A stretch of DNA of 43,534 nt from Phycisphaerales bacterium. GTDB lineage: Bacteria; Planctomycetota; Phycisphaerae; Phycisphaerales; SM1A02. Location of the stretch: the NCBI GenBank assembly GCA_009691705.1, contig SIAR01000020.1:1-43534 (forward strand). Reading direction: 5' to 3'. The notes below the pieces were generated by a model that worked only from the letters and a program-made list of their open reading frames with translations, was not told the DNA's origin and did no database searches. The position numbers and the translations under genes were made by a program. Shown here piece after piece: positions 345 to 42,804 of the stretch (position 1 is its first letter; each line of letters starts with the position of its first letter).

Positions 345-350
345 TAAGAT
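345..350 (+). promoter_or_regulatory. -10-like box for leaderless HIT gene
   Basis: TAAGAT ends 7 nt before ATG 358. There is no purine-rich ribosome site in the 27-bp gap after the permease stop. If this is a -10 box, transcription would start at or next to the A of the ATG. No clear -35 box is visible. Confidence 0.5.
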
Positions 351-357
351 TGCCCGC

Positions 358-879
358 ATGGCACATCAGGATCTTTGGGCGCCTTGGCGCATGGCATATC
401 TGCACCAACTCGAGTCACAAGAGTCAGACGCGCGCGTGGGTACTGCGCCTGCCTCTGCGAACTTCCTGCGCGCCGCGTGGGATGATGAAGCAAACGCCGC
501 CGCGCATCACGTGGTCTTTCGCAACGCGCATGGACTGGCCCTGCTCAATCGATACCCCTATGCCAATGGTCATGTGTTGGTCGCTCTCGCAGATGCGCGA
601 CCAACTTTGATGGATTACACCCCGGAGCAGCGCGCGCAACTCTGGCAACTCGTCGATGTCGCGGTCGATCTCGTCGAGCGCGCCTTTCATCCGCAAGGCA
701 TCAACGTTGGATTCAATCAAGGCCGTGCGGCGGGTGCGGGACTCCCCGAACACTTGCATGTGCATGTGGTCGCCCGCTGGGGAGGAGACACGAATTTCAT
801 GGCGTCCATCGGTGCGATTCGGGTGGTTCCAGATTCGCTCGAGAACAGTTGGAAAGCTCTGTGCGCCGTCGCGCGATAG
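358..879 (+). CDS. HIT-family Ap4A phosphorylase-like protein
   Basis: A 173-residue histidine-triad protein. The catalytic triad HLHVHV lies at residues 132-137 (His132, His134, His136). The N-terminal LWAPWRMAYL, the central NRYPYANGHVLV and the WGGDTNFM segment after the triad match the branch containing mycobacterial Ap4A phosphorylase (Rv2613c-like). That family cleaves diadenosine tetraphosphate with phosphate or moves AMP between nucleotides in the cytoplasm. The length fits a single HIT domain. ATG 358 is chosen because MAHQDLW leads directly into the conserved region and a -10-like box sits 7 nt upstream. Exact substrate specificity is inference; membership of the HIT superfamily is secure. 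Confidence 0.88.
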   Translation: MAHQDLWAPWRMAYLHQLESQESDARVGTAPASANFLRAAWDDEANAAAHHVVFRNAHGLALLNRYPYANGHVLVALADARPTLMDYTPEQRAQLWQLVDVAVDLVERAFHPQGINVGFNQGRAAGAGLPEHLHVHVVARWGGDTNFMASIGAIRVVPDSLENSWKALCAVAR

Positions 880-1158
880 CCATGCCTCGTTGGGTCCCGC
901 CGGAGCGATCCGAGCGAACTCGCAGTCGAGACCCGAAGGTCAAATGACTGAAGTTGGCGAAAGCTCTCGAACCCAATTCGTAAGTGGGTTCGCCTTCAGT
1001 CGATCCCGATCTTCCACTCGGTGAAACCGGAGGCTTGATCTTCGTCGCCGAGGGGCGATCCCTTGGGTTCGCGCAAGGTTCGAGCGCATGTGTGCCAACT
1101 GTCGTCCGGCGGGACCGAACGAGGCTCTAATACTGTAACAATCAGCACGATCCCACCC
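880..1158 (+). other. Intergenic gap with a two-part hairpin
   Basis: No convincing gene lies here. Two nested inverted repeats stand out. GACTGAAG (946-953) pairs with CTTCAGTC (994-1001), and inside it CGAACCCA (968-975) pairs with TGGGTTCG (985-992). There is no T-tract, so this is not a classic intrinsic terminator. TAATAC at 1128-1133 is a possible -10 box for the downstream transporter. The TGGGTTCG part looks superficially like a tRNA T-arm, but no cloverleaf can be built around it. Confidence 0.45.
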
Positions 1159-2514
1159 GTGCGCTTTCCTCTGACCAAATACTTTTTTTCGGCGCTCAAC
1201 GACTTCGTTGCGGGATTCCATCCCCGCTCGCTTCCGCCGATGTTGCGGGCCAATTATGCGCGCGAACTCTTCTCTTGGTTGCTGTTGCCGCTGATGCTCG
1301 GAGCCGTCGAGGGGGGCACGATGGCCATAATCGTGAAGAAGATGTTTGCCGGAGTGGATGGCATCTCTAGCGAGCAACTCGACTTCGCGGTCGCGGCCGT
1401 GAGTGCCGCGCCAAACATCGCCAACCTCTCGAGTTTCATTTGGGCTTCACTCGCCCACGGACGCACAAAGATCAGTTTCATCAGCGCGCTGCAACTTGTG
1501 ACGTGCGCCTGCGTCGCGCTCATCGCGGCAATCCCTATGAGTGCGCTCGGATTGCTGCTGCTCACGCTGCTCATTTTCATCGCCCGCGTCGCGTGGACCG
1601 GCGTCATCACCGTACGCACCGCGGTCTGGCGCAACAATTATCCCCGCGCCAATCGCGCGCTCATCGCCGGAAAGATGGCGATGGTGCAATCAGTCGTGCT
1701 CGCCATCGGCGGGCTTGCCATCGGCGAGACGATGGACATCGCCCCGGGAACTTTTCGCTTTCTCTTTCCAGCGCTCGCACTTGCCGGATTCGGCGGCAAC
1801 ATGATCTACCGCAAGGTTCGCTTGCGGGGACAGCGGCGCTTGCAACGTGCCGAACAAGATGGTCGCGCCCGAGGTGAAGCGCAAGTCGATCCACGCAGAC
1901 TTCTGGGGCTCTTGCGCGAAGATCGCCTCTATGCAAAGTTCATGTGGTGGATGTCTGTCTTTGGACTCGGCAACCTCATGATGGGGCCGCCACAAGTCAT
2001 CGTTCTCAACGAGCAGTTTCATACCTCATATCTCGAGGGAATCCTCGCCACCACCGTCATTCCACTCACGGTGATGCCGCTGGCGATTCCCGCTTGGTCG
2101 CGCTTTCTCTCGCGCACACATGTGATTGCATTTCGCGCCGTGCACGGCTGGACGTTTGTGTTCGCCGCCGCCGCGATGTGGATCGCCGTTCTACTGCACT
2201 CGCTTGCGTTGATGTACGGCGCAAGTGCGCTGCTTGGCTTGGGCTTCGCCGGTGGATCGCTCGCCTGGAATCTTGGGCACCACGACTTCGCCCCAGCCCA
2301 CCGCGACAGCGAGTACATGGCGCTTCACGTCACCCTGAACGGTCTGCGCGGGGCGGTCGCCCCGTTCCTCGCCGTCGCGCTCTATGTGCCAATGGCATCC
2401 GCAGGATGGGGGGCGTGGTTCTTTTTCATCTGCTTCCTGATCAATCTCATCGGATTGATCGGATTCATCTCGATGCGAAAGCTCATACCTGCCCGAAAGA
2501 GCGCGGAAACTTGA
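1159..2514 (+). CDS. MFS-like multi-pass transporter
   Basis: A polytopic membrane protein of about 451 residues with roughly ten to twelve hydrophobic segments. It has a basic central loop (around KVRLRGQRRLQRAEQDGR) between two halves, as in the major facilitator superfamily. The conserved-looking MFS loops are weak, so the substrate is unknown. The frame extends upstream to TTG 1063. I prefer GTG 1159 because the stretch before it (1063-1158) is non-hydrophobic and contains a possible -10 box (TAATAC, 1128-1133). The start remains uncertain. The stop codon overlaps the predicted rpsA promoter. Confidence 0.7.
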   Translation: MRFPLTKYFFSALNDFVAGFHPRSLPPMLRANYARELFSWLLLPLMLGAVEGGTMAIIVKKMFAGVDGISSEQLDFAVAAVSAAPNIANLSSFIWASLAHGRTKISFISALQLVTCACVALIAAIPMSALGLLLLTLLIFIARVAWTGVITVRTAVWRNNYPRANRALIAGKMAMVQSVVLAIGGLAIGETMDIAPGTFRFLFPALALAGFGGNMIYRKVRLRGQRRLQRAEQDGRARGEAQVDPRRLLGLLREDRLYAKFMWWMSVFGLGNLMMGPPQVIVLNEQFHTSYLEGILATTVIPLTVMPLAIPAWSRFLSRTHVIAFRAVHGWTFVFAAAAMWIAVLLHSLALMYGASALLGLGFAGGSLAWNLGHHDFAPAHRDSEYMALHVTLNGLRGAVAPFLAVALYVPMASAGWGAWFFFICFLINLIGLIGFISMRKLIPARKSAET

Positions 2515-2520
2515 TATATT
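2515..2520 (+). promoter_or_regulatory. Predicted rpsA -10 box (TATATT)
   Basis: TATATT follows the stop codon of the upstream transporter gene directly and lies 90 bp before the rpsA ATG. It would give a 5' leader of about 80 nt. No clear -35 hexamer is seen. Confidence 0.4.
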
Positions 2521-2533
2521 CATCGACCCGCCA

Positions 2534-2548
2534 CTGAGATGGTCTCAG
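2534..2548 (+). promoter_or_regulatory. Hairpin in the rpsA 5' leader
   Basis: CTGAGA-TGG-TCTCAG is a perfect 6-bp stem with a 3-nt loop, near the predicted 5' end of the rpsA mRNA. S1 regulates its own translation through leader structure in some bacteria, so a regulatory role is plausible but unproven. A hairpin with the same 9-nt core occurs before ptsI (32661-32673). Confidence 0.35.
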
Positions 2549-2610
2549 GGGCATTCGCCTTGCACTCGAGCACTGTGCTCGTCTGCGCATTTTGGAACGC
2601 ACCCCCCACC

Positions 2611-4395
2611 ATGGTTGATTACAACTTAATTGAAGACATCGCACTCGATCTTGACGCCGTCACGCTGCAATTGCGCGAGGCATTCGGCGACCGAGCCATT
2701 TCAGAAGACCTCAGCGCAATCCTCGAGAAGGCCGGCGCCTCGATCGGTGCTCCCAATAGTGTCATCAAAGGAACAGTTGTTTCGATCAGCGGCGACTTCG
2801 TCATCGTCGATGTTGGACTGAAGAGCGAAGGACAGATTCCAAAGGAAGAGTTCGATGATGCCGGCGGCGTTTCGCCTGGCGACCAAGTCGACGTCTTGCT
2901 TGAAGAAATTGATGACGGTGAGGGCAACATCGTCATCTCGAAGCGCAAGGCCGATCGCATCCGCGGTTGGGAACAACTCCTGCAATCGAAGAAGGAAGGC
3001 GACGTCGTTGAAGGCAAGGTCTTGCGAAAGATCAAGGGCGGATTGCTCGTCGACATCGGCGTACCAGTCTTCTTGCCGGCATCACAGGTTGACGTCCGCC
3101 GTCCCGGCGATGTTGGCGACTTTGTTGGACGCACGATTCGTGCCGCCGTTTTGAAGATCGATCTCGAACGACGCAATATCGTCATCAGCCGCCGCAAGTT
3201 GATCGAGGTCGAACGTGAAGATGCCCGCCGCAATTTGCTCACCAAAGTCAAGGAAGGCGACATCGTCAAGGGAACCGTTACGAACATCGCGGAGTTCGGC
3301 GCATTCGTCGATCTCGGCGGTATCGACGGCCTTTTGCACATCACCGACATGTCTTGGGGACGGGTCAACCACCCAAGCGAGATCGTTCGCATCGGACAGG
3401 AAATCGAAGTCAAGGTGCTCAACATCGACCGCGAACGCGAGAAGGTTGCCCTTGGTCTCAAGCAGCGCGAACCAAGTCCGTGGGAAGAGATCGAGAAGAA
3501 ATACCCAGTCGGCGCTCGCGTGCACGGCTCGGTTGTTAGCTTGATGTCGTACGGCGCGTTCGTTCGCCTCGAAGATGGCATCGAAGGACTCGTGCACGTC
3601 AGTGAAATGTCGTGGACGCGTCGCGTGAACCATCCAAGTGAGATCGTCCAAGTGAATCAAGAGATCGACGTTGTCGTTCTTGACTTCAACAAAGACAAAC
3701 TAGAAATATCGCTGGGCATGAAGCAGTGCGAAGTGAATCCATGGGACCTCGTTGCCGAGCATTACCCTGTTGGCACCGTCATCTCTGGAAAGGTGCGCAA
3801 CCTCGCCAACTACGGAGCGTTCATCGAGATCGAGGCAGGCATCGACGGATTGCTGCACATCTCGGATATGTCGTGGACCAAGAAGATCGCCCATCCAAAT
3901 GAGATTCTCAAGAAGGGCGACGAGATCAAGTGCGTTGTCATCGAGGTTGATCAAGAGAAGCAACGCGTCGGACTCGGCGTGAAGCAACTCACCGAAGATC
4001 CATGGGTCGAAGCGATCCCAGGCGCATACCGTCCAGGGATGATCGTTAAGGGAACCGTTACCAAGATCACCAACTTCGGTGTCTTCGTCGAACTCGAGGA
4101 TGGCCTCGAAGGTCTCTTGCACATCTCAGAGCTCAGCGACCAAAAGGTTGAAAACCCGATGGATATCGTCAAGGCCGGCCAAGAAGTCGATGTCAAGATT
4201 CTGCGCGTCGACACCGACGATCGCAAGATTGGTCTCAGCCTCAAGCGCGCTCAGTGGGGCAACGCCACCGCGGGTCGCGACGCTGCGCCTGCGACCGAAG
4301 ATGACGCGTTCATTCTGCCGCGCAAGTCCAAGCCAACCAAGGGTGGAATGGACAGCCACGGGGCACTCGGTACCGACAAGATTCAGCTGGACTGA
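2611..4395 (+). CDS. rpsA: 30S ribosomal protein S1 (six S1 domains)
   Basis: This 594-residue protein carries six consecutive S1 RNA-binding (OB-fold) domains. They begin near residues 51, 134, 218, 303, 390 and 477. Domains 3-6 have the classic pattern GxVxxIxxFGAFVxL, then GLLHIS(D/E)MSW, then a (K/R)VxLGxKQ end. Domains 1 and 2 are more divergent, as in the ribosome-binding end of bacterial S1. The role is mRNA binding and unwinding at the 30S subunit during initiation. ATG 2611 is chosen because MVDYNLIEDIALDLDA starts the helical N-terminus; the frame extends to ATG 2539, but that addition is not S1-like. The short C-terminal tail after domain 6 is Lys/Asp-rich. A strong terminator follows. 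Confidence 0.95.
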   Translation: MVDYNLIEDIALDLDAVTLQLREAFGDRAISEDLSAILEKAGASIGAPNSVIKGTVVSISGDFVIVDVGLKSEGQIPKEEFDDAGGVSPGDQVDVLLEEIDDGEGNIVISKRKADRIRGWEQLLQSKKEGDVVEGKVLRKIKGGLLVDIGVPVFLPASQVDVRRPGDVGDFVGRTIRAAVLKIDLERRNIVISRRKLIEVEREDARRNLLTKVKEGDIVKGTVTNIAEFGAFVDLGGIDGLLHITDMSWGRVNHPSEIVRIGQEIEVKVLNIDREREKVALGLKQREPSPWEEIEKKYPVGARVHGSVVSLMSYGAFVRLEDGIEGLVHVSEMSWTRRVNHPSEIVQVNQEIDVVVLDFNKDKLEISLGMKQCEVNPWDLVAEHYPVGTVISGKVRNLANYGAFIEIEAGIDGLLHISDMSWTKKIAHPNEILKKGDEIKCVVIEVDQEKQRVGLGVKQLTEDPWVEAIPGAYRPGMIVKGTVTKITNFGVFVELEDGLEGLLHISELSDQKVENPMDIVKAGQEVDVKILRVDTDDRKIGLSLKRAQWGNATAGRDAAPATEDDAFILPRKSKPTKGGMDSHGALGTDKIQLD

Positions 4396-4416
4396 TCAGT
4401 TTTCCTCTGCGGTTCC

Positions 4417-4453
4417 AAACCCGGCTCCACCATCAGGTGGGGTCGGGTTTTTT
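4417..4453 (+). terminator. Intrinsic terminator of rpsA
   Basis: AAACCCGGCTCCACC pairs with GGTGGGGTCGGGTTT around an ATCA loop, with one mismatch and one G-T pair over 15 positions. The stem runs straight into a run of six or more T. It begins 22 bp after the rpsA stop. Confidence 0.93.
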
Positions 4454-4782
4454 ATCTTGCCGCGCGAGCCCGTGACGGTGCGACGCAAATCAGTCGTTGC
4501 AAAAGCAACGACGACCCGCGATAAATCGCAGGCCGTCGCGCTTTTCGGCACATCCTGCACTCGCATGCTGGGACGTGTCTCCCCATCCGCCCTGCCGCCC
4601 CCCGAAGGGGGGTGTCAGTGCCGAAAAAGGCGATTGTGTCAGAGGATTGCCAAGAATGAAAGAATCGTGAGCAGCACTAGTCGCTGCTGGGTGACCTCAT
4701 ATGGGATGATTCGGTGTATCAACATCGCAACACTCGTATATATCGTCACTTGAGGACCGACCACACGCATGGTCGCCCCACA
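4454..4782 (+). ncRNA. Structured non-coding region, candidate RNA
   Basis: No gene covers this stretch of more than 300 bases between the rpsA terminator and the next operon. It holds several inverted repeats. GTCGTTGC-AAAA-GCAACGAC (4493-4512) is a perfect 8-bp hairpin. A long-range stem joins 4535-4551 to 4618-4634: ten consecutive pairs (CTTTTCGGCAC side), two mismatches, then five more pairs. Inside that stem is CCCCCC-GAA-GGGGGG (4598-4612). AGCAGC (4670-4675) pairs with GCTGCT (4683-4688). It lacks the signatures of RNase P RNA, SRP RNA or tmRNA that I could look for. Strand is assumed from the flanking genes. It may instead be an untranslated or decayed region. Confidence 0.35.
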
Positions 4783-4788
4783 TACACT
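4783..4788 (+). promoter_or_regulatory. -10-like box for leaderless operon start
   Basis: TACACT ends 6 nt before ATG 4795, with no Shine-Dalgarno sequence between. It fits the leaderless pattern seen at other genes in the window. Confidence 0.45.
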
Positions 4789-4794
4789 CGCAAG

Positions 4795-6621: not shown

Positions 6622-6649
6622 TGCCTATCCTCTGCTTTGGAGGTTTGCC

Positions 6650-7762: not shown

Positions 7763-9465
7763 GAATTGGTCGGGATCTGCTCAGCCCGCGCCAGATTGTC
7801 ATTCTCGTCATCGCGTTGAGTTTTCTCGCGCTTGCCTCGCTTGATACAACCCAACTTGCGCTCTTCTTCTCGCATGAACTCTTGACTCAGCGCGCGCGCC
7901 TCGCGATTCGGCCCGTCACACTGGATGGGGCGCAACTCTTTCGAATCATGTCAGTTGTCGCCGCGATCGCATGGTTGATCGTTCCCCGTCTCTTCATCAC
8001 CAACGATGCGCCTCGCAGTTGCGGGCGCCCCAGCATTTCATGCTCGCGCGACACAGTGTTGCTGCTCTGCGTCGTGCTCCTGCTCGGTCTCACCGAGCGC
8101 GTCTGGAGAGTTAGCGAGAGTTTTTGGTTTGATGAAATCTCTGCACTCGTCGACTACGCGCAGTACGGTCCAGGAGCGATCGTTGCGACGTACTTCGTGC
8201 AGTCCAATCATGTCTTGCACACGTTGCTTTCGTGGTGCGCAATCACACTCGCCGCTGGAGCTAGCGAGCCCATCCTGCGACTTCCTGCGCTGCTGTGTGG
8301 GCTCGCCGCGATCCCGATAATTGCTCTGCTCGCCGGCGAGTGCGCGATCTGGCGTGGCGTCTCGCACTCAGTTGCCGTGTCGATCGCCTGCGCCCTCGCG
8401 GCACTGAGCCCCATCATGGTTGTCGAGTCAGTCGAAGCGCGCGGCTATTCAATGATGATTCTCTTCGCCGCCCTCGCGTGCTGGCAGTTCTTGCGTGGAT
8501 GGCGCACCGGCGAATCTGGCGCGTGGATCATCTATGCAATTGCATGTGTGCTTGGAGTCTGGACACACTTCACATTTGTCGCGCTTCCCATCAGCCACGG
8601 AGTGATTGCGGCGTGGTTCTTGATTCGCCGCGGAAGTTCTGCGATCGATCGCCGCGCGGCGCGCACTGCCATCGCTGCCCTTGTGCTCGGTGCAATCACG
8701 ACGCTCGCCTTGCTCGCTCCCCTGCTGCCAGACCTGCTGAGCATTAGAAGCGAGTTTCAGGCACTTGACGGCAACGAGCCATCGCTCATCTCTCGCGAGG
8801 GATTTCATCTGCTCATCGGTCTTGGTGGATCATGGACACCGCTGTTCGCACTGCCTGGACTTGCGCTTTTTCTGCTTGGAGTGTGGGGATCGATCCACGA
8901 CACCGCGCGCCGATTTCCGCTCGCCGTCACATTGCTTGCGCTTCCACTCATGATCGTTGGCACGACGCTCGCTGGCAGTTGGATGTACGCGCGATTCGGC
9001 CTGTTTGCATTGCCAGGAATCCTGCTTGCGATCGCGCTTGGGCTCTGCGACCTTCGAACGAAGCGGCTCATGACTGTCATTGGCGTCATCCTTGCATTCG
9101 TATGGACCGCCGACCTGTACACGCTTCCTGCTAAGCAACCGATTCGAGACGCAGTCTTCTTCGTGCGCGATCAAGATCGCTCAGTCACCTCGCTGGCGAG
9201 TGCGGGACTCGCCGACAACGTCGTCGCCTACTACGGAGTGGTCGCTAAAATTGATGTTGCGAACGCTGGCAGCGCCGGCAGCAATCTTGCCACACTTTCG
9301 CCCACGATCGTCTGGCTAATAGTGCTCTATCCCGAGTCACTCACCGAAGAGGCACGGGGACTCATTGAGCGCGACTGGACGCTCGTGCAGAGATTCGAGG
9401 GATGGGTCGACTGGACCAACGGCGATGTGCTTGTGTATTGCCGCAAACAGAGTGCGACGCGCTAG
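7759..9465 (+). CDS. GT39-like membrane glycosyltransferase
   Basis: A 568-residue polytopic membrane protein with about ten or more hydrophobic helices. The first large non-membrane loop carries FWFDEISALVDYAQYG followed by SNHVLHTLL. This is the pattern of GT-C fold glycosyltransferases (GT39/GT83, ArnT-like), where the Asp of the DE pair is catalytic. Such enzymes move a sugar from a lipid carrier to a protein or lipid on the outer face of the cytoplasmic membrane. The C-terminal 90 residues are soluble. GTG 7759 overlaps the TGA of the preceding gene (GTGA), and GGAGG in the Gly-coding tail can serve as its ribosome site. Its stop shares the palindrome CTAG (9462-9465) with the stop of the convergent gene. 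The acceptor is unknown. Confidence 0.72.
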   Translation: MRIGRDLLSPRQIVILVIALSFLALASLDTTQLALFFSHELLTQRARLAIRPVTLDGAQLFRIMSVVAAIAWLIVPRLFITNDAPRSCGRPSISCSRDTVLLLCVVLLLGLTERVWRVSESFWFDEISALVDYAQYGPGAIVATYFVQSNHVLHTLLSWCAITLAAGASEPILRLPALLCGLAAIPIIALLAGECAIWRGVSHSVAVSIACALAALSPIMVVESVEARGYSMMILFAALACWQFLRGWRTGESGAWIIYAIACVLGVWTHFTFVALPISHGVIAAWFLIRRGSSAIDRRAARTAIAALVLGAITTLALLAPLLPDLLSIRSEFQALDGNEPSLISREGFHLLIGLGGSWTPLFALPGLALFLLGVWGSIHDTARRFPLAVTLLALPLMIVGTTLAGSWMYARFGLFALPGILLAIALGLCDLRTKRLMTVIGVILAFVWTADLYTLPAKQPIRDAVFFVRDQDRSVTSLASAGLADNVVAYYGVVAKIDVANAGSAGSNLATLSPTIVWLIVLYPESLTEEARGLIERDWTLVQRFEGWVDWTNGDVLVYCRKQSATR

Positions 9466-10787
9466 TCGTGACGAAGCGCCACGACTGGATCTTTGCGACT
9501 GGCAATGATCGCCGGATACATGCCGAAGATCAGTCCCACTGCTGCGGCGACCCCAAAGCTGACGATGATCGACCAGAGTGTGATCACAGGTTGCAGCGAG
9601 AATCCGCCGCCGAATGCGCCGCGAAACATCGGCCACTTCTGAATGACTGGGATGATCTCACCCAGTCCGATCGACACGCCGATTCCGAGCGCGATCCCTA
9701 GCACCCCTCCCACCGTCGAGAGTGAACCAGTCTCGACCAGAAACTGCAGCGTGATGTGGCGGCGTGTCGCGCCGAGCGCACGACGAATGCCGATCTCACG
9801 CGTTCGCTCGGTCACACTCGCGAGCATGATGTTCATGATTCCAATTCCACCCACGAGCAGACTGATAGCGGCGATCGAGACAAGCATCACATTCCAGACC
9901 AGCATTGCGCGACGAGCGTTCTCGAGCAACTCCCAAGGCACGACGATTTGCACATCGGTGAGCCCTGGATGCCCGACGGTCATGATGCGCTCGACACGCT
10001 GCGAGACTTGATTGACAGCCTCCGTGGATGGCGCCGCAACATAGACCTCGCTCAATTGAATCTCTTCTGCGCTAAATGTTCCCGACGTGCGCCGCTGCAC
10101 AACGTCGCCAAACTGACGCTCAGCGGTCGAGAGAGGGATGTGCAGATCTCGATTGAGATCGCGTCCCACTAGGGCACTGCCAGCTCCCCCTGCGAACCCC
10201 TGCTCTTCGAGCAATCCCACCACGCGAAAGACTTGTTGGTCGATGCGAAAGTCCTGTCCGAGCGCATCGCGCGCAGGAAAGAGTTGCCGCGCCGTCTCTG
10301 CACCAAGCACCGCCACGGGCGCATGCGTCTCGATGTCTTGGGCGGTGAGGTATCGACCGCCCCGCGCGACGCGCAGATTGGCGGCGACTGCGAGTTCAGG
10401 AACCGTTCCAAATGTCTGACTGTTCGTGCGAAATGCGCCGCGACTGATCTCACTGCCAACTGCCTTCAACGCCACCACCAACTTCGCATCACCGAGCGCC
10501 AGTTGCAAACGCCGCGCATCTTCGTAGGTGATTCCGTACCGAGAGATAAACGTGCGCGCTTGGGTCGAGCTAGCGGCATCGGGAGGCTTTGAACTGCGCA
10601 CAATGATGTTGGTTGCACCAAGCGCCGTGATATCGCGCAGCGCAGACTGTTTGTTGCCCTCCCCGATTGAAACGACCACGATTACTGCGGCGACTCCGAG
10701 AATGACTCCAAGACACGTCAGGATCGAGCGCAGTGCGTGTCGGCGCAGGTTGCCCAGTCCGAGGCGAAAAGTCTCGACGAAGAACAT
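9462..10787 (-). CDS. MacB/FtsX-type ABC transporter permease
   Basis: A 441-residue permease. It starts MFFVETFRLGLGNLRRHALRS, with a first membrane helix (LTCLGVILGVAAVIVVVSIG) followed by GEGNKQSAL. A periplasmic MacB-like core domain of about 220 residues comes next. The C-terminus has three helices with the FtsX motif (IGIRRALGATRRHI). The family exports antibiotics, lipoproteins or peptides, or acts as a mechanotransmitter. No ATPase or membrane-fusion gene is adjacent, so its partners must be elsewhere. ATG 10787 is preferred to GTG 10865 because it begins the conserved N-terminus and avoids overlap with the divergent gene at 10840. TACGCT (10797-10802) lies 9 nt upstream as a possible -10 box. 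Confidence 0.85.
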   Translation of the reverse strand: MFFVETFRLGLGNLRRHALRSILTCLGVILGVAAVIVVVSIGEGNKQSALRDITALGATNIIVRSSKPPDAASSTQARTFISRYGITYEDARRLQLALGDAKLVVALKAVGSEISRGAFRTNSQTFGTVPELAVAANLRVARGGRYLTAQDIETHAPVAVLGAETARQLFPARDALGQDFRIDQQVFRVVGLLEEQGFAGGAGSALVGRDLNRDLHIPLSTAERQFGDVVQRRTSGTFSAEEIQLSEVYVAAPSTEAVNQVSQRVERIMTVGHPGLTDVQIVVPWELLENARRAMLVWNVMLVSIAAISLLVGGIGIMNIMLASVTERTREIGIRRALGATRRHITLQFLVETGSLSTVGGVLGIALGIGVSIGLGEIIPVIQKWPMFRGAFGGGFSLQPVITLWSIIVSFGVAAAVGLIFGMYPAIIASRKDPVVALRHD

Positions 10788-10839
10788 CACCGCGAAAGCG
10801 TAGAAGATTCTGCGCGATCCGTGGCTATCCTTCGGCGCG
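10788..10839. promoter_or_regulatory. Divergent promoter gap, permease and small protein
   Basis: This 52-bp gap separates the starts of the MacB-type permease (-) and the small protein (+). TATCCT (10826-10831) ends 8 nt before ATG 10840 on the + strand. TACGCT (complement of 10797-10802) ends 9 nt before ATG 10787 on the - strand. Neither gene has a ribosome-binding site. Confidence 0.4.
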
Positions 10840-11151
10840 ATGAATGGACGACTTGAAGTTGCCACCGAGCGCGAAGGGTCAGCCTGTTGGATCTTCGAGA
10901 TTTGCAGAAGCGGCCAGACCGCTCCAGTCTCGACATTGACTCTGGCGTGGGCCGACTACGACTGGTGGTCACCCGACGGACGTCACACTCCGTCACAAGT
11001 CGCACTTGCCGTCGTTGAGGTAATGCAGTGTGCGCCTTCGGTTGACGGAGTTGCGAGCGTGCTTCCCGCAAAGTTCGATGCGAGCACGATTCGAAGGCGC
11101 ATCAGTCAGGCGGACCGTCTCATCAACGAACACCTTCAGATTTGCCCATGA
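10840..11151 (+). CDS. Small conserved-looking protein of unknown function
   Basis: A 103-residue soluble protein with no signal peptide or membrane segment. It contains WADYDWWSPDGRHTPSQVALAVVEV, then PAKFDASTIRRRISQADRLI near the end. The layout (YD-W-S, helix, FDA-(S/T)-(I/L)-RR) resembles small uncharacterised planctomycete proteins as I remember them, which I cannot confirm here. Codon use matches the neighbours, and the start is supported by a TATCCT box 8 nt upstream. Its last 29 bp overlap the convergent kinase gene. No function can be proposed. Confidence 0.6.
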   Translation: MNGRLEVATEREGSACWIFEICRSGQTAPVSTLTLAWADYDWWSPDGRHTPSQVALAVVEVMQCAPSVDGVASVLPAKFDASTIRRRISQADRLINEHLQICP

Positions 11152-12700: not shown

Positions 12701-12742
12701 CGGGTACAGCCTAGCGGGATCATTCTCTGCCTATCCTGCCAC
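12701..12742. promoter_or_regulatory. 42-bp divergent leaderless promoter region
   Basis: The kinase (-) and zinc-ribbon (+) starts are only 42 bp apart. TAGGCT (complement of 12708-12713) ends 7 nt before the kinase ATG. TATCCT (12732-12737) ends 5 nt before ATG 12743, or 8 nt before the adjacent ATG 12746. Both mRNAs would be leaderless, and each promoter's upstream contacts would overlap the other. Confidence 0.5.
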
Positions 12743-16451: not shown

Positions 16452-16457
16452 TATTCT
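16452..16457 (+). promoter_or_regulatory. -10-like box for leaderless pdxH
   Basis: TATTCT ends 7 nt before ATG 16465, in a 24-bp gap after the preceding stop. No ribosome-binding sequence is present. Confidence 0.5.
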
Positions 16458-21013: not shown

Positions 21014-21019
21014 ATAGTA
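21014..21019 (-). promoter_or_regulatory. -10-like box for leaderless dnaE
   Basis: On the - strand TACTAT is followed by 7 nt and then ATG 21006. It overlaps the alternative upstream ATG 21015, so the box and that start cannot both be used. Confidence 0.5.
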
Positions 21020-22765: not shown

Positions 22766-22796
22766 CGACACAGGGTAGCCGCCGTAGTATCGGCGG
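22766..22796. promoter_or_regulatory. 31-bp divergent leaderless promoter region
   Basis: Only 31 bp separate two divergent start codons. TAGTAT (22785-22790, +) ends 6 nt before ATG 22797. TACCCT (complement of 22772-22777, -) ends 6 nt before ATG 22765. There is no room for leaders or separate -35 boxes, so use of the two promoters may be mutually exclusive. Confidence 0.55.
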
Positions 22797-24814: not shown

Positions 24815-25696
24815 TCAGTACGTTGGGCGAGATGTAAAAAGCATTGACCCGCGCTGATCTAGAACGCGCCAATCTGAATTGGCATTCGCGATGCCGACTG
24901 GAATCTTGAATCCGGTACCGCCGAGGCGATGTTCGGCTACAAAGTTTCCGACGGTTTGAACGACCCCAGATTGGCGGTCAACCGATTGCAGCGAAAATGT
25001 CTGCCGAAGTGCAGGGTCGACCCAGAGGATGAGCACCTCGTCAAATGTGGGAGCGAGTGCCACGGTGAAAGACCCGTTATCACGAGCAGTGGCACCCACG
25101 AGCCCTCTGATAATGCGGCCTTCTTCGAGAATCTCTGGGAGATCTTTTCCCAAGAGGTCTCTCAATTCGTCGGAATATGAGTTTTGGAGTGCGAGTTCAC
25201 CGATTCGAGCAGCTTGGCGCGCGGTTGCGACCTGAAACACCATGACTGCGGCAAGACCTGCAATCGACGCGATGCACGCGGCTCGCCAGTACCGGGCGGA
25301 CTTGCGCCAACGACCATCTATCAGTGATGGCAGCGGCTCATTCGTTTGAGCTGTCGCGCTCGAGTCTCGGTCAAATGGACTCGTGAGTGAGCGTGAAGCC
25401 GAAACAGGACGGCCGATCGACGCAATTGGTGCGAGTTCAGCATCGGTTGCTTCGACTGCCTGGGCGACAGACGCCAGAACGCGCAGGCGCAGTGATCTCT
25501 CGGGCTCGATCACGGGAAGTAAGAGCGACTCCACCGCCATTGAGGCTTGCAGGTCAACAACTTCGCGCTGTAGTGCAGGTAGAGCCTCTCGAAAGAGACG
25601 TTCGAGTCGTACGCCATCGGCGTTTTCAAGTGCGCCGAGAACTTCCAACTGTGCGAGTTCGATGATTTCTTCACGATTTGATGGACAACTTGCCAT
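24815..25696 (-). CDS. Membrane anti-sigma factor (RskA-like)
   Basis: A 293-residue protein directly downstream of the ECF sigma gene. A cytoplasmic helical domain (residues about 1-140) is followed by one transmembrane helix (WRAACIASIAGLAAVMVFQVA). The C-terminal domain, expected outside the membrane, has the beta-rich layout of anti-sigma-K (RskA) C-terminal domains, with VALAPTFDEVLILWVDPALRQTFSLQ and GFKIPVGI. It probably holds the sigma factor inactive until an envelope signal releases it. No zinc-binding HxxxCxxC motif was seen, so it is not of the ZAS type. ATG 25696 is chosen over the longer frame because AGAGGTG lies just upstream. Confidence 0.75.
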   Translation of the reverse strand: MASCPSNREEIIELAQLEVLGALENADGVRLERLFREALPALQREVVDLQASMAVESLLLPVIEPERSLRLRVLASVAQAVEATDAELAPIASIGRPVSASRSLTSPFDRDSSATAQTNEPLPSLIDGRWRKSARYWRAACIASIAGLAAVMVFQVATARQAARIGELALQNSYSDELRDLLGKDLPEILEEGRIIRGLVGATARDNGSFTVALAPTFDEVLILWVDPALRQTFSLQSVDRQSGVVQTVGNFVAEHRLGGTGFKIPVGIANANSDWRVLDQRGSMLFTSRPTY

Positions 25697-29625: not shown

Positions 29626-29631
29626 AGAATA
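29626..29631 (-). promoter_or_regulatory. -10-like box for leaderless cysQ-like gene
   Basis: On the - strand TATTCT is followed by 6 nt and ATG 29619. No ribosome site is visible. Confidence 0.5.
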
Positions 29632-32624: not shown

Positions 32625-32706
32625 TGACCCGCAGACCCGATTCGACCGACACTTCAGATTCCAGATGGTCTGGGATCGCAGTGACTGACTCACCTCGGAA
32701 GCCTAA

Positions 32707-37700: not shown

Positions 37701-37964
37701 GAGCCTGCCAATGAATCTGTGCAGACCGGCACAGACGGGTCTCCAACCAAGGCTGTGCAACCTCGCCGCGAGCAACGGTCAGACACTCCACAACCTGCGC
37801 GAGAGTCAACCGCGACTCCGTCCGTTCCAACCGCGCCAACACCAGCTGCGCCATCCGCGGCAACTGACGCGCCAGCGAAACCAAAGCGCCGCTCGCTTTA
37901 CGGTGCGGCCGTGCGATTGCTCTCTTCGCTCGAACGAACGAAAGCCAAGGGGCGTCCTGAGTGA
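34725..37964 (+). CDS. RNase E/G family ribonuclease with long tails
   Basis: A 1079-residue endoribonuclease. An acidic N-terminal extension of about 150 residues precedes the S1 domain (GSIYKGRVMNIEGAIQAAFIDFG). The DNase I-like catalytic part has Asp467 in VAIDVNSG and Asp510 in VVDCIDM, the same 43-residue spacing as E. coli D303/D346. The Zn-link is CTHC (568-571). The C-terminal 480 residues are disordered, with Arg/Gly-rich stretches, acidic patches, a helical block (FETTRVAAILQTSVEELISKL), nine HGG repeats and a Pro/Ala-rich end. Such tails often scaffold a degradosome and bind RNA or membrane. ATG 34725 is used; GTG 34743, with AGGAT upstream, is possible. dxr follows after 18 bp. 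Confidence 0.92.
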   Translation: MRQDDNVPEDNKPVNEDADAPLPIEIPLDEVADISFDERRPLPPESGEVNIDDYAEEAHERAEQQERTHDEDDVDADALSNEAHTELDGEPELLESEEAQPSDNALRSSSDATPSDESVPGADGEADADSPAAASGDAVATPKPKTRTRAKALPARTVQLVVNDEPGDECRIAILADGRLDSYFSEREATATNVGSIYKGRVMNIEGAIQAAFIDFGSGQNGFLHISDLHPKYFPGEERTEQVGKKIARSERPLIQQALRKGQEILVQVIKEGLGSKGPTLTSYLSLPGRLLVMMPDMDRVGVSRRVEDEDQRREMRRILDSLQLPEGFGFILRTAGFDSTKTELQRDAAYLQRLWDAMEKRSSKTGAPCELYTESDVLVRTLRDQVDSTVESIIVDSPGAFERAKMFLDVIAPKSSGSVQYYNGKVPVFEAFGIERQIDEIHSRVVPLPSGGALVFDQTEALVAIDVNSGRSRSARDSETNAFQTNREAIEEVCRQLRLRDLGGLIVVDCIDMRFIKHRREIEERLTALLKIDRAKSSFAPISEFGIIEMTRQRMRPSLRKMHYADCTHCTGSGEIRVSGAVAADAMRRIALLFSYTNVHRVELVCSVRVAGELLSNRRRAMHELEERASKRIDVRISEAFAADRIEFYAYDEQNSDLELDRLPAAPRPAKSALHDELPEEEVVELSPAEVLARRRRRKRRPAPADATAIALAGGFEDLPDVSDDELSVREALAQRTDNEEPSQQQDRGQRSGGRDGRRRRGGRADQPVRGAGERPAQTGAGNERPAHGQPSNRRRRGRGRRGIDSIIDMVAENAAFETTRVAAILQTSVEELISKLRSDADPEVAALLTPGTTMLPPELIARAQTLYPEVWAQSSDSGAPESDTAERQESASDGTSATVQPSRGDSRRRSSREKQVPARGNDGERSGHGGHGGHGGHGGHGGHGGHGGHGGHGGQTGQTGQGRRGSRRGRGGRDRVARDGNDRGTAQPRTEPANESVQTGTDGSPTKAVQPRREQRSDTPQPARESTATPSVPTAPTPAAPSAATDAPAKPKRRSLYGAAVRLLSSLERTKAKGRPE
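37509..37616 (+). repeat. 9-bp tandem repeats coding (Gly-His-Gly)n in RNase E/G
   Basis: Nine copies of GG(A/G)CATGG(T/C) run from 37509 to 37589 and code His-Gly-Gly repeats. Shorter QTG units follow to about 37616. The frame is kept throughout. The repeats are DNA-identical enough to vary by slippage and look recently expanded. Confidence 0.95.
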
Positions 37965-37982
37965 CCACGCTGTGATACTGGC

Positions 37983-39188
37983 ATGACTCAACAGCGCAGA
38001 CTCTTTGTTCTCGGTTCTACTGGATCGATCGGTGAAAACACCCTCGAAGTCGTGCGGCATCTCGCCGCCGAGGGATCGATCAACTATTCAGTCATCGGAC
38101 TCGCCGCGGGATCAAACGTTGAGAAACTCGCCCTGCAAGCGAACAAACTCGGTTGCGCCGCGGTTGCGATAGCGCACAGCAATGCGGCGCGCCAGTGGCG
38201 CGGTCCAACAGCATGCCAACTATTTTCTGGGGCAGATTCTGCGCTCGAGTTGGTCAAGGCGCACGCCCGCCCCGGAGACCTCGTGATGGGGGCGATGGTC
38301 GGTGCCGCGGGCATTGCGCCGATCTTGGCCGCAATTGAAGCGGGATGCGACATCGCACTCGCCAATAAGGAGACGCTCGTCGCCGCTGGTGAGATCGTGA
38401 CCGAGGCTGCGCGCCGGCGCGGGGTGTCGATCATTCCGGTCGACAGCGAACACAGCGCAGTCTTTCAGTGTCTGCGGGCGGCGACGACGCCCAAAGAAGT
38501 TCAACGAATCGTTCTCACGGCGAGTGGCGGTCCATTTCGAAACACCCCCAAGGACATCATGAACTGCGCCGTACTTTCGGACGCGCTGAAGCATCCAACG
38601 TGGTCGATGGGGCGCAAGGTCACCATCGACAGCGCATCGATGATGAACAAGGCGCTCGAGATTATCGAAGCGCACTGGCTCTTTGATCTTCCCGCCGAGA
38701 AAATCGATGCGGTCATCCATCCGCAATCGATCGTGCATTCGTTTGTCGAGTTTGTCGATGGCAGCGTGGTGGCGCAGCTCTCGCCGCCCGACATGAGATT
38801 GCCGATTCAACTTGCATTGACCTGGCCGGCGCGCGCTCCCCGGTGCGCCAAGGCGCTCGACTGGACGGCACTGCGCACGCTCGAATTCGAACCGATCGAC
38901 GTCGATCGGTTTCCTGCGGTGCAACTCGCGTGGCGGGTGATTCGCGCTGGAGGCACTTCTGGTGCGATTCTCAACGCCGCCAACGAAGCCGCGGTTGACG
39001 CATTCTCATTGGGATCGATTCACTTTGGAGAGATAAGCACGCTCGTGCTCGCTGCACTTGATGCGATCCCAGCAACGGCTGTTGGCGATCTCTCGACCAT
39101 CTTGCACGCTGATGCTCAAGCGCGCGCATGGGTGCAAAGCGAAGTCTGTCGACTGCGCGTTGCAGACGCACACTCGGGCGCGCAATAA
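37983..39188 (+). CDS. dxr: 1-deoxy-D-xylulose-5-phosphate reductoisomerase
   Basis: A 401-residue enzyme that makes 2-C-methyl-D-erythritol 4-phosphate, step two of the MEP isoprenoid pathway. NADPH binds at LFVLGSTGSIGENTLEVV. LANKETLVAAGEIV and PVDSEHSAVFQCL carry the metal and substrate residues. SGGPFRN, then HPTWSMGRKVTIDSASMMNKALEIIEAHWLF, are family hallmarks, and HPQSIVHSFVEFVDGSV closes the site. The length is normal. It begins 18 bp after the RNase E/G gene. A possible box (TGTGAT or GATACT) lies just upstream, but the spacing is ambiguous. Confidence 0.97.
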   Translation: MTQQRRLFVLGSTGSIGENTLEVVRHLAAEGSINYSVIGLAAGSNVEKLALQANKLGCAAVAIAHSNAARQWRGPTACQLFSGADSALELVKAHARPGDLVMGAMVGAAGIAPILAAIEAGCDIALANKETLVAAGEIVTEAARRRGVSIIPVDSEHSAVFQCLRAATTPKEVQRIVLTASGGPFRNTPKDIMNCAVLSDALKHPTWSMGRKVTIDSASMMNKALEIIEAHWLFDLPAEKIDAVIHPQSIVHSFVEFVDGSVVAQLSPPDMRLPIQLALTWPARAPRCAKALDWTALRTLEFEPIDVDRFPAVQLAWRVIRAGGTSGAILNAANEAAVDAFSLGSIHFGEISTLVLAALDAIPATAVGDLSTILHADAQARAWVQSEVCRLRVADAHSGAQ

Positions 39189-39224
39189 ACCAGTCGCATT
39201 CGCTCGCACTTCTCCACACTCGCC

Positions 39225-39230
39225 TACCCT
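39225..39230 (+). promoter_or_regulatory. -10-like box for rseP
   Basis: TACCCT ends 9 nt before ATG 39240, so the mRNA leader would be only one to three nucleotides. No ribosome site is present. Confidence 0.4.
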
Positions 39231-39239
39231 CCCAAGACG

Positions 39240-41375
39240 ATGGAACTTCTCGGAAACGGCGCGAATGTATTGCTCGTACTCATTGGCTTTGGACTGCTTG
39301 TTGCTGTGCACGAGTTTGGGCACTTCATCGCCGCGAAGTGGGCATGTGTTCGGGTCGATAGTTTCGCTGTTGGCATGGGACCCGTGCTCGTCTCCTACCG
39401 CACCGGAATCGGAATGCGCTTTGGATCGACCGATCCAATCGTTCTGAAGCAGACTGGAAAACGCCCGATCGAACTCTCAGACAGAGAGATGGAAAGGCTC
39501 GAACTTGGCGAGACCGAATACTCGCTTCGCGTGCTTCCACTTGGTGGCTTCGTAAGAATGCTTGGCCAGGATGACCTCGACCCATCCGCCGCGAGTTCTG
39601 ATGTTCGTTCGTACAACCGTGTCGCGGTGTGGAAACGGATGATCATCGTCAGTGGCGGAGTGGCGTTCAACATAGCGACAGCCGTGCTGTTCTTCGTGAT
39701 CGCATTCATGATTGGAGTTCGCTTCGAAGCGCCACTCGTCGGCGCTGTGATGCCTGCCGCGGCTGCTGCAACCGCTGGAATGCAAGCTGGCGATCTCGTC
39801 GTTGCGATCGACGGATCACCTGTGTCGACTTTCGCAGATCTACAGATTGCCGCGGCAATGGCGAAACCAGCCGAACCGCTGCTCATGACCGTCGACCGTG
39901 CGACTGAAGGCGTGCACAAACAATTGACGCTCGAGGTGACCGCGCGACAAGACCCCATTGCCGGAGTGATGTCCATCGGCATCGCTCCTGCCGCGAGCAC
40001 TGCCCTAGTCAACAACGATGAGGCGCGTCCGTTTCTCTTTGGCGCACTCGCCCGCGCAGGATTCTGGAATCACGCTCCCGATGGGATGCCATCCACGCAG
40101 CAATGGGGAGTGCCAGGCGCACCACCGTCGCGCGAAGAATTCGCATCTAGTTTTCAGGGCGCAACATTGCTCACCGTGAACGGCAGCGCAGCGACTTCGT
40201 ACGACGCACTAGACCGAGCCGCAATACTTTCTGCAGGACAACCACTCGCGACCACCTGGGCATTCGCGTCGGGCGGCGATGTTGCCGTTGCCCTCAATTG
40301 TGCGCCGATTTGGCAGATTCTTGTGCACACAAGTAAACCTCCGACCGCGACGATCGATTACGAGCCGGGACTACTCGGGATGGCGCCGCTCGTGCGAATC
40401 GGTCGGGTGCTCGACAGTTCTCCCGCACTTGGCGCGATAGAAGAGGGTGATGTCATCCTGCGCGCTGGTGAGGTGACTGGACCGCGACAAATGGAGTTTC
40501 GTATCGAGTTGCTCAAGCATGCCGGCAGAACAATTGCGCTGCGTGTTCTGCGCGCTGGCGTCGAGATTGACACCACGCCCCGCGTGGGACGCGACGGAAA
40601 GCTCGGCGTCGAAATCGGATTCGCATGGGAGACTCCACTCATCGCGCAACCGTTCGCCGTGACGGGCGCTCCGCCAGGAAAGGCGACCGCAGTTGCGCCA
40701 TTCAATCTGATGCCACTGACCCGCATCGACTCAGTCAACGGTCATTCGATCGGCGATTGGACCGACATCTTTCGCGCAACCATCGATTTCGTCGGCGAGT
40801 CGCCTGCCGCGAGCAATCTTGTGGTGATCATTACTCCGCCGACGCCATCGGCGCGCGCCGAACAGTCAACGATCGTCATTGACAGTGCACAACGGCAAGA
40901 ACTCGCGACAATTGGATGGCGGCCAGCACTCGGACCTGAGTGGTTCGCGCCTGCCGAGGTCGTGCTCACCGCTGGTGGCGATCCAATCAAGGCAATTGGG
41001 ATGGGTTTCACCGAGACGAAGAAGATGGTGTTGCTGACGTACCTCACCCTCGATCGACTCTTTCGAGGCACGGTGGGCGTATCGCAGTTGCGCGGTCCAG
41101 TTGGAATCGTGCACATCGGCACGCGCGTCGCCGATCGCGGAGTGACCTACTTGCTCTTCTTTCTCGCGATGATCAGTGTCAATCTCGCCGTGATCAACTT
41201 CTTGCCGATTCCCATTGCCGACGGCGGGCTCATGGTCTTTCTGGCGTACGAGAAATTGCGCGGCCGACCACCGAGTCCATCCTTTCAGAATGGAGCCATG
41301 ATTGCTGGATTGGTTCTCGTGGGAGCGCTCTTCGCCGTCACCTTCTACAACGATGTCATGCGTTTGGTGACCTAA
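39240..41375 (+). CDS. rseP: Site-2 protease RseP, enlarged
   Basis: A 711-residue M50 intramembrane metalloprotease; E. coli RseP has 450. The zinc motif HEFGH is at residues 24-28 in the first helix. The third ligand motif NFLPIPIADGG lies at about 653-663. The C-terminal helices, TVGVSQLRGPVGIV and GVTYLLFFLAMISVNLAVINF, fit the family. The extra 260 residues lie between the first two membrane parts and contain at least two PDZ-like units (AGMQAGDLVVAIDGSPV and IEEGDVILRAGEV), with other GD-like motifs suggesting more. It probably cuts anti-sigma or other membrane proteins and may act on the anti-sigma factor at 24815-25696; that link is inference. Confidence 0.93.
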   Translation: MELLGNGANVLLVLIGFGLLVAVHEFGHFIAAKWACVRVDSFAVGMGPVLVSYRTGIGMRFGSTDPIVLKQTGKRPIELSDREMERLELGETEYSLRVLPLGGFVRMLGQDDLDPSAASSDVRSYNRVAVWKRMIIVSGGVAFNIATAVLFFVIAFMIGVRFEAPLVGAVMPAAAAATAGMQAGDLVVAIDGSPVSTFADLQIAAAMAKPAEPLLMTVDRATEGVHKQLTLEVTARQDPIAGVMSIGIAPAASTALVNNDEARPFLFGALARAGFWNHAPDGMPSTQQWGVPGAPPSREEFASSFQGATLLTVNGSAATSYDALDRAAILSAGQPLATTWAFASGGDVAVALNCAPIWQILVHTSKPPTATIDYEPGLLGMAPLVRIGRVLDSSPALGAIEEGDVILRAGEVTGPRQMEFRIELLKHAGRTIALRVLRAGVEIDTTPRVGRDGKLGVEIGFAWETPLIAQPFAVTGAPPGKATAVAPFNLMPLTRIDSVNGHSIGDWTDIFRATIDFVGESPAASNLVVIITPPTPSARAEQSTIVIDSAQRQELATIGWRPALGPEWFAPAEVVLTAGGDPIKAIGMGFTETKKMVLLTYLTLDRLFRGTVGVSQLRGPVGIVHIGTRVADRGVTYLLFFLAMISVNLAVINFLPIPIADGGLMVFLAYEKLRGRPPSPSFQNGAMIAGLVLVGALFAVTFYNDVMRLVT

Positions 41376-41390
41376 CCGCACCGGCGAGCG

Positions 41391-42095
41391 ATGCACGCGC
41401 CAGTCACGATCATCACCGGTGCAGGCAGCGGCGTCGGACGCGCCACTGCGCAGTTGCTCGCGCGCGCTGGGCACCGACTCGCGCTCGCTGGCCGTCGCCA
41501 TGAGGCACTGCTAGAGACCGCCGAATCATGCGTCGGTGCCCCTGAGATTCTCTGCCATCGGGCTGACCTCAGCCTCGACCTCTCGGCAAGTCAACTTATC
41601 GAAGCGGTCGTTGCAAACTTTGGGCGCATCGACAACTTGGTGAACTGCGCGGGTATCGCACCAATGGTGCCAATCGCGCAGACGACCGAGCAACATCTTT
41701 CCGATTGCTTCGGCATCAACACGTTGGGGCCCGCACTTCTCATCATCCGCTGCTGGCCGCACTTCGCAGCGCAGAAGTCGGCACGCATTGTGAACGTCTC
41801 GTCGCTCGCGACGAGCGATCCATATGCAGGATTCTTCGCCTACGCCGCATCGAAGAGTGCACTTGATTCACTCACCCGCAGCGCCGACAAAGAAGGTGCT
41901 GCCATCGGCGTGAAGGCGTTCTCGATCAATCTTGGCTGCGTTGAGACGGCACTCTTGCGGTCGTTCGCTGATGAGCAACTCGTGCCGAAGTCGCGGGCAC
42001 TCGCTCCCGAATATGTCGCGCAAGTCATCGCGCAGTACCTCAGTGGATCGCGCGACAGCGAACATGGCACCTGCATCGCTCTGCCAAGCCCATGA
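41391..42095 (+). CDS. Short-chain dehydrogenase/reductase
   Basis: A 234-residue classical SDR. The cofactor motif TGAGSGVG lies at residues 9-16, the NAG motif is NCAG, the catalytic Ser is in NVSS (137/138) and YxxxK is YAASK (Tyr151, Lys155). The Arg after the second strand (AGRR) favours NADP(H). The substrate is unknown; a role in a small-molecule or lipid pathway is possible. It starts 15 bp after rseP and is probably co-transcribed with it. It converges with smpB. Confidence 0.9.
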   Translation: MHAPVTIITGAGSGVGRATAQLLARAGHRLALAGRRHEALLETAESCVGAPEILCHRADLSLDLSASQLIEAVVANFGRIDNLVNCAGIAPMVPIAQTTEQHLSDCFGINTLGPALLIIRCWPHFAAQKSARIVNVSSLATSDPYAGFFAYAASKSALDSLTRSADKEGAAIGVKAFSINLGCVETALLRSFADEQLVPKSRALAPEYVAQVIAQYLSGSRDSEHGTCIALPSP

Positions 42096-42103
42096 ACGAG
42101 CCG

Positions 42104-42589
42104 TCACCGCCGGCGATGCATCGCGCGGTCGATGTCGCGTTGACTATCGCGCTTTGAAATCACCTGTCGCTTGTCACCCTTGGTACGTCCCGTGCCGACC
42201 CCTACCAGCAATTTGGCGAATCCATTCTTGAAATAAATCTTGAGCGGAACGAGCGAGACACCCTTCGCCTGCATCTGCCCGGCGAGTTTTTCGATCTCGC
42301 GACGCTTGGCCAGAAGTCGTCGTACACGAATCGGCACATGTTGGCGGTCGCGTCCCGCTGGCGCGTACTCGGCGATATGAACTCCGTGAAGATTCAGCCG
42401 CAGCGGATTGAGCTCGGCCATGACCCACCCCTCAGCAAGGCTGACCTGTGACCCACGAACTGATTTGACCTCAGTTCCGAGCAGCTCTATGCCGCATTCA
42501 ATCGTTTCTCCTATTGAGAAATCATGAAAAGCCTTGCGATTATCGATCATTGGTGATTGATCGGATGTTTTTTCGCGCTTTCTCGCCAC
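42104..42589 (-). CDS. smpB: tmRNA-binding protein SmpB
   Basis: A 161-residue protein that brings tmRNA to stalled ribosomes for trans-translation. Family motifs: IDNRKAFHDFSIGETIECGIELLGTEVKS, then LNLHGVHIAEY, then RRLLAKRREI and VPLKIYFKNGFAKLLVGVGTGR. The Lys/Arg-rich C-terminal tail that enters the mRNA channel is present. GTG 42589 is chosen because TATGTT ends 6 nt upstream and the protein then has a normal length; the longer frame adds Cys-rich sequence not seen in SmpB. The tmRNA gene is not in the window. Confidence 0.95.
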   Translation of the reverse strand: MARKREKTSDQSPMIDNRKAFHDFSIGETIECGIELLGTEVKSVRGSQVSLAEGWVMAELNPLRLNLHGVHIAEYAPAGRDRQHVPIRVRRLLAKRREIEKLAGQMQAKGVSLVPLKIYFKNGFAKLLVGVGTGRTKGDKRQVISKRDSQRDIDRAMHRRR

Positions 42590-42804
42590 GGGTGAAACAT
42601 ACCCGCGAGCGACTGCGCAACTGCAAATCGACCGAATCTGCCACGAGATAGTTTGCACTAATCAAAGAATGCAGCATAATGACTGCGTACGAATGGCTTG
42701 GCTATTCGTATGCGTTTGTGCTGGGCGAGAGTTGTGCCTCGCTCGGCTGTGTTTTCGTTCCAACTCTTGTGAAGCCCACCCCCCCACCAAAGGCACTCTG
42801 ACCC
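42590..42804. promoter_or_regulatory. Divergent promoter region of smpB and the last gene
   Basis: TATGTT (complement of 42596-42601) is the predicted smpB -10 box. GCGTACGAAT (42685-42694) and ATTCGTATGC (42704-42713) form an inverted repeat with nine matches in ten. It could be an operator or a hairpin in the leader of the + strand gene. I searched for a tmRNA next to smpB and found none. Confidence 0.45.

Follow-up and report, generated by a model that had tools for sequence, protein, structure and literature searches.

The closest described counterparts of the gene starts analyzed here are the TA-led genes of Zheng et al. (2011; PMC3160421), in whose main text Actinobacteria and Deinococcus-Thermus stand out as the rich groups (over 20%). 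As in our case, the TANNNT signal of these genes lies some 12 bp upstream of the start, its middle three bases carry little information in high-GC genomes, and TA-led genes occur mixed with SD-led and atypical ones. A second counterpart comes from Deinococcus-Thermus, where, according to the main text of Zhong et al. (2025; PMC12340547), a −10 element adjacent to the open reading frame is found in about a third of Deinococcus radiodurans genes, and the promoter works without a −35 element but is enhanced when one is added. The starts described below share with this system a TANNNT just before the start codon and the lack of a −35; they differ in belonging to another phylum, and the −10 role is experimentally established in Deinococcus. 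Mycobacteria, which are high-GC bacteria as well, likewise have many leaderless mRNAs beside leadered transcripts (PMC3898074, PMC4633059).

Planctomycetes go unmentioned in the main texts of Zheng et al. and Zhong et al., the latter of which also includes a bacteria-wide motif scan by phylum (Fig. S7). The passage of the StartLink paper (PMC9581028) that refers to leaderless transcription as predicted by GeneMarkS-2 for 21.6% of bacterial species does not name them either, and the relevant portion of PMC10783764 names Phycisphaerae solely for their anti-Shine-Dalgarno type. In the open literature on planctomycetes or Phycisphaer- together with leaderless, transcription start sites, or Shine-Dalgarno, we came across no title in which leaderless genes of the order are mapped or described, and subscription papers and supplements (e.g., the GeneMarkS-2 survey) may hold an entry. 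The kind of gene start that we describe is already known, but we found no earlier description of it for this lineage. The feature is real, strong, and conserved, and its comparative pattern is the more interesting part.

We analyzed a stretch of 43,534 nt, referred to in full as the window, which is contig 26 of a 1.99-Mb Phycisphaerales genome (46 contigs, 93% complete). The gene starts that follow a TAnnnT box are very probably those of leaderless or near-leaderless mRNAs, which would be transcribed from −10-only promoters and begin at the start codon itself or at most about 3 nt away from it.

TAnnnT boxes in the window and in its congeners

Twelve TAnnnT boxes, spread over positions 345 to 42601 on both strands, had been predicted in the window, and all 12 sequences and spacings match the DNA. 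The 15 nt upstream of each of the 12 starts contain no GGAG, GAGG, or AGGA, in agreement with the predicted lack of a Shine-Dalgarno sequence. Conservation was assessed in 16 congeneric genomes, using stretches around dnaE from 11 and dnaE loci from five more. The start of each orthologue was set by projecting the window start through the protein alignment to the nearest in-frame ATG or GTG, with no box sought. The closest relatives of the window's DnaE (83–86% identity) come from Planctomycetia bacterium F1-60, Phycisphaerales bacterium Baikal-deep-G163, and one further bin.

On the plus strand, TAAGAT (345–350) lies 7 nt before ATG 358 of a HIT-domain protein and is kept in the single usable orthologue (1/1), and TACACT (4783–4788) lies 6 nt before ATG 4795 of a 608-aa protein without a Pfam match (kept in 5/5). 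TATCCT (10826–10831) precedes ATG 10840 of a 103-aa protein without a Pfam or NCBIfam match by 8 nt (6/7), TATTCT (16452–16457) precedes ATG 16465 of the pyridoxamine 5'-phosphate oxidase gene pdxH by 7 nt (15/15), TAGTAT (22785–22790) precedes ATG 22797 of an ABC-F family ATPase by 6 nt (11/11), and TACCCT (39225–39230) precedes ATG 39240 of an M50 peptidase with PDZ by 9 nt (2/2). A second TATCCT (12732–12737) is located 5 nt before ATG 12743 and 8 nt before ATG 12746 of a ClpX-type zinc-finger protein (9/10). Because the orthologues point to the latter codon, the real start of this gene is probably 12746, one codon downstream of the start that had been listed.

On the minus strand, TAGGCT (12708–12713) is found 7 nt before ATG 12700 of a sensor histidine kinase (10/10), and TACCCT (22772–22777) is found 6 nt before ATG 22765 of a 163-aa protein without a Pfam or NCBIfam match (9/10). 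TACTAT (21014–21019) lies 7 nt before ATG 21006 of a gene that we take to be dnaE, a name that comes from the original prediction and the N-terminus rather than from a family-library scan (13/15). TATTCT (29626–29631) lies 6 nt before ATG 29619 of a cysQ-like gene of the bisphosphate nucleotidase/inositol monophosphatase family (8/8), and TATGTT (42596–42601) lies 6 nt before GTG 42589 of smpB (2/2, with the start moved by one codon in one of the two). The claim that the box decides the starts of dnaE, smpB, and cysQ is backed by the usable orthologues of dnaE and of the cysQ-like gene, whereas smpB has the backing of two orthologues only.

In total, the box (TAnnnT at 5–9 nt) is present in 91 of the 96 usable orthologue starts of the 12 listed genes, compared with 1, 0, and 1 of 96 in control windows at 15–19, 20–24, and 25–29 nt (2/288 in sum). 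For the six listed genes with a blind-called start (see below), the count is 51/51. At the other 19 genes of the window, five of which have no usable orthologue, a box was found in 1 of 69 orthologue starts. Examples of conserved boxes are TAGGCTGT before the histidine kinase gene, CTATTCTC before the cysQ-like gene, and GTAGTATC before the ABC-F gene.

To this we add the comparison of flanks in 65 boxed pairs with less than 90% protein identity that align from residue 1. Between −45 and −15, base agreement per column is 0.15–0.46 with a mean of 0.34; the box is thus preserved, whereas the sequence around it mostly diverges. This result bears on the possibility that the box is a real −10 but a secondary one, most transcripts starting at promoters further upstream and so carrying longer leaders. 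Bacterial genes commonly have dual promoters, and the sequence is compatible with longer leaders, but since only about a third of the bases between −45 and −15 are shared on average, no second conserved promoter shows up within that reach, and we regard such an arrangement as very unlikely. When columns are anchored at the start codon, positions −12 to −7 of boxed genes share 0.51–0.63 of bases, and positions −10 to −6 are raised too (0.49–0.73) in 41 pairs of unboxed genes, as Shine-Dalgarno sequences would give. As such, start-anchored column conservation is a weak footprint.

Several further observations concern individual genes. For the gene at 9462–10865 (−), seven of nine orthologue alignments start at residue 19–27, and GTG 10865 is probably placed too far upstream; a later start would do away with its overlap with the boxed gene at 10840. 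Before rpsA (window 2510–2539, +; TGATATATTC), TATATT ends 18 nt upstream of the ATG, with a similar stretch in genome G012, and is possibly a −10 with a short leader of about a dozen nucleotides. Counterparts to the boxed genes are the starts at 25696 (−) and 26475 (−), with a Shine-Dalgarno-like AGAGGTG and with GGAG or GGAGGAG, respectively, kept in several congeners. Rfam gave no matches in the window at gathering thresholds. The in-frame TGA seen in dnaE of four congeners proved to be an ordinary stop near the 3' end. In a same-family genome (L044, G020), and in that genome alone, the dnaE homologue has one in-frame TAG inside a conserved stretch, which may be a sequencing or assembly error.

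Excess over chance at blind-called starts

Because the original prediction had placed some starts by the box itself, which is circular, the excess was re-tested with our own gene caller, which uses codon-pair statistics and start-codon type only and is blind to promoters and ribosome sites. On the plus strand of a 50-kb stretch of Escherichia coli K-12, this caller recovered 25/25 annotated stops and 19/25 annotated starts. The first sample consisted of the window and 20 stretches of the same genome (386,897 nt); the second consisted of 20 fresh stretches (400,000 nt), called with a model trained on the first sample alone. Expected box counts were derived from TAnnnT counts at 15–44 nt before starts.

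A box at 5–9 nt precedes 54 of 291 starts in the first sample (6.7 expected) and 58 of 295 in the fresh one (7.5 expected; p = 1.5e-33). The original prediction had proposed a genome scan for such an excess, and both samples show it, with 112/586 starts against 14.2 expected when pooled (p = 5e-64). The empirical background of about 2.4% per gene (14.2/586) is close to the 3% that had been estimated. Within the window, 6 of 30 blind-called starts (4795, 12700, 16465, 22797, 29619, and 39240) are boxed at 5–9 nt, with p = 7e-5 against the empirical background. The same pipeline gave 15/121 against 3.3 expected on 150 kb of a Deinococcus radiodurans plasmid, and no excess on 100 kb of E. coli K-12 (3/76 against 4.8 expected).

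These counts also address a selection effect, in which start codons were picked that happen to follow TAnnnT. Six of the 12 listed starts were indeed not chosen blind, as the caller placed those at 358, 21006, and 42589 elsewhere and left the small genes at 10840, 12743, and 22765 uncalled. However, the excess appears with blind calls in the window and in both samples, the first as well as the fresh one, and orthologue starts set with no box sought keep the box in 91/96 cases, so that chance or circular start choice is ruled out and a selection effect is scarcely credible.

The pooled spacings peak sharply, with 2, 57, 22, 14, and 17 boxes at 5, 6, 7, 8, and 9 nt, i.e., a mode of 6 nt. Counts at 10 and 11 nt are also raised (12 and 9); given that spacings 9–11 are all elevated, some leaders would be a few nucleotides long or some starts misplaced. 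Counting without gene calling gave 48 (first sample) and 41 (second sample) occurrences of TAnnnT-N6-ATG, against roughly 18 at most other spacings. For TAnnnT-N6-GTG, the first sample had 37 against about 17 and the second only 19, and the GTG excess is thus unreplicated. By the tests used, 351 of the 586 starts have neither box nor Shine-Dalgarno, which is partly start error, since the caller matched 19/25 annotated E. coli starts.

The box as a probable promoter element and its gene context

The alignment of 93 boxes with spacing 6–8 in the window's genome has the consensus TA[G/C]n[C/A]T, preceded by a weak C-G (CG in 23/93). The fifth base is C at a frequency of 0.52 and the central bases are not rich in A and T, by which plain AT-richness near starts is ruled out. 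The T, A, and final T of a sigma-70-type −10 are present and are those kept in the orthologue starts. TTGACA-like −35 sites (15–19 nt upstream, at most two mismatches) occur with 17 of 93 boxes against 13.0 in shuffles, 15% of which reach 17, and are thus not clearly commoner than in shuffles, as expected from the prediction that no −35 is evident. An extended −10 (TGn) was sought as well, and TG one base before the hexamer was found in just 8 of 93 boxes.

With a sigma-70 −10 whose last T lies 6 nt ahead of the start codon, transcription usually starts at the first base of that codon. We propose that TAnnnT serves as the −10 element of housekeeping promoters that have no recognizable −35. RNA polymerase would open the DNA at the box and start transcription about 7 nt downstream of the last T, which would fall on or close to the start codon, and the ribosomes would bind the 5'-terminal start codon of the resulting mRNA directly. 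About a fifth of the genes are boxed closely enough that their mRNA would start on the start codon or only a few bases away from it. We infer the RNA 5' end, the sigma-factor use, and the ribosome route from sequence. The sequence-testable features agree with the predicted leaderless expression, namely the 6-nt mode, the TAnnnT core, the orthologue conservation, the freer flanks, the depletion in tightly coupled genes and at Shine-Dalgarno starts described below, and the lack of a −35.

Stand-alone CarD acts at mycobacterial promoters. Here, unlike in mycobacteria, the sole match to PF02559 lies in a protein of Mfd size. The window's genome has a single match to the family, as do 19 of 20 relatives (G007 has none), in open frames of 649–1210 aa that we read as Mfd by size, not as stand-alone CarD. 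CarD was therefore rejected as a helper.

Gene context, which stands in for transcription units, was divided into leader-type (divergent, or a co-directional gap of more than 15 nt) and tightly coupled (a co-directional gap of at most 15 nt), omitting 28 of the 586 starts that have no called upstream neighbor. Boxes precede 87/377 leader-type genes compared with 20/181 tightly coupled ones (p = 6e-4), the latter boxes counting against the leaderless reading. Shine-Dalgarno sequences show the reverse, with 69/377 and 59/181, respectively (p = 2e-4). The two signals also avoid each other: both occur together at 11 of 586 starts (odds ratio 0.31), i.e., a Shine-Dalgarno is found in 11/112 boxed compared with 123/474 unboxed starts (p = 1.5e-4). 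We note that, in 4 of the 35 genes of the first sample with co-directional gaps of 0–15 nt, the box takes its TA from the stop codon (TAA or TAG) of the upstream gene.

An alternative is that the box is a translation signal, an S1-binding or AT-rich non-Shine-Dalgarno site within a longer leader, and not a promoter. The window does encode S1 (rpsA, 2539–4395), and Nakagawa et al. (2017; PMC5397173), in the part of the text concerned, leave S1 and leaderless mRNA open for their one planctomycete. Against such a site, the definition fixes just the T, A, and last T, and the three remaining positions, with C at the fifth, are not AT-rich; an S1 site would be expected to be U-rich and to lack the sharp 6-nt mode; and tightly coupled genes, which need translation too, carry boxes less often. 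Altogether, we consider a translation signal to be highly improbable and retain the reading of the box as a −10 element.

Among 11 16S loci found in 25 genomes, nine reach the 3' end, and all nine, of which four are congeneric, carry the anti-Shine-Dalgarno CACCTCCTT (9/9 in the order); no 16S was matched in the genome of the window itself. Loss of the anti-Shine-Dalgarno (CCTCC) was thus rejected as a cause for the relatives. Two initiation routes, leaderless and Shine-Dalgarno, appear to coexist, because box and Shine-Dalgarno are split by context, few starts have both, and the anti-Shine-Dalgarno is intact in the relatives. Tightly coupled downstream genes would more often take the Shine-Dalgarno route with the same ribosomes.

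Distribution across Planctomycetota

As a proxy that needs no gene calling, TAnnnT-N6-ATG was compared with TAnnnT-N18-ATG across the phylum in 294 whole genomes, with excess defined as binomial p < 1e-4. The window's own genome has 214 (N6) against 77 (N18). All 15 sampled genomes of its order, Phycisphaerales, show an excess (ratios 1.33–6.79), compared with none of seven genomes from other orders of the same class (summed counts 7896 vs 7881). Among the 272 genomes of other classes, 101 have an excess, clustered by family, and one has a significant deficit. Examples of families with an excess are f64 (2611 vs 675, 12 genomes) and f35 (1291 vs 415, 5 genomes); f50 (33888 vs 33681, 15 genomes) and f32 (16543 vs 16186, 16 genomes) have none. 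The prediction that leaderless genes are a major class in this planctomycete lineage is therefore supported for the order, and does not extend to the whole phylum, given the other orders of the class and several families elsewhere without excess. Outside the order, none of 42 sampled genomes with a completeness of at least 98%, most of them presumably from cultured strains, reaches p < 1e-4, and this may explain why the trait escaped notice.

Outside the order, the N6 excess is a proxy only, and gene-level counts in other lineages are small and mixed. Boxed among called starts (expected in parentheses) were 5/51 (0.2) in G054, 0/10 (0) in G253, 2/40 (0.5) in G086, 2/61 (3.5) in G261, 6/73 (2.8) in G143, 7/55 (1.7) in G139, 10/66 (0.8) in G195, and 3/49 (0.5) in G300. 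On balance, we lean toward the view that −35-less leaderless expression is an old, order-wide trait of Phycisphaerales that has been gained or lost several times in Planctomycetota, with a working Shine-Dalgarno system kept and no stand-alone CarD.

If the leaderless reading is true, about a fifth of the genes, by blind calls, are expressed without a 5' leader. Starts from gene finders that seek Shine-Dalgarno sequences may therefore often be wrong in the order, for which the dnaE start of the window is a suggestive case, and expression in these planctomycetes, which are largely uncultured, would need different modeling. In addition, the sharp contrast between orders of one class offers related genomes with and without the trait in which to test why bacteria use leaderless mRNAs. 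If the trait has been gained or lost repeatedly, the phylum would serve as a natural experiment on the causes of switching between leaderless and leadered initiation.

The proxy was also applied to 24 of the 80 genome records from the DnaE comparison. Four Phycisphaerales relatives, one titled Planctomycetia and one deposited as Leptolyngbya, have N6/N18 ratios of 2.9, 4.4, 4.9, and 3.8, and the other 20 records (other planctomycetes, Omnitrophota, Bacillota, Bacteroidales, and others) have ratios of 0.89–1.50. The highest of the 20 is the Planctomycetia record L094 (333 vs 222, p = 1e-6), itself positive, followed by the Singulisphaera record L085 (348 vs 266, p = 5e-4). The record deposited as Leptolyngbya sp. 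PLA1 (L054, QWIH01000059.1) looks mislabelled, because its dnaE is 54% identical to that of the window and it shows the same box excess.
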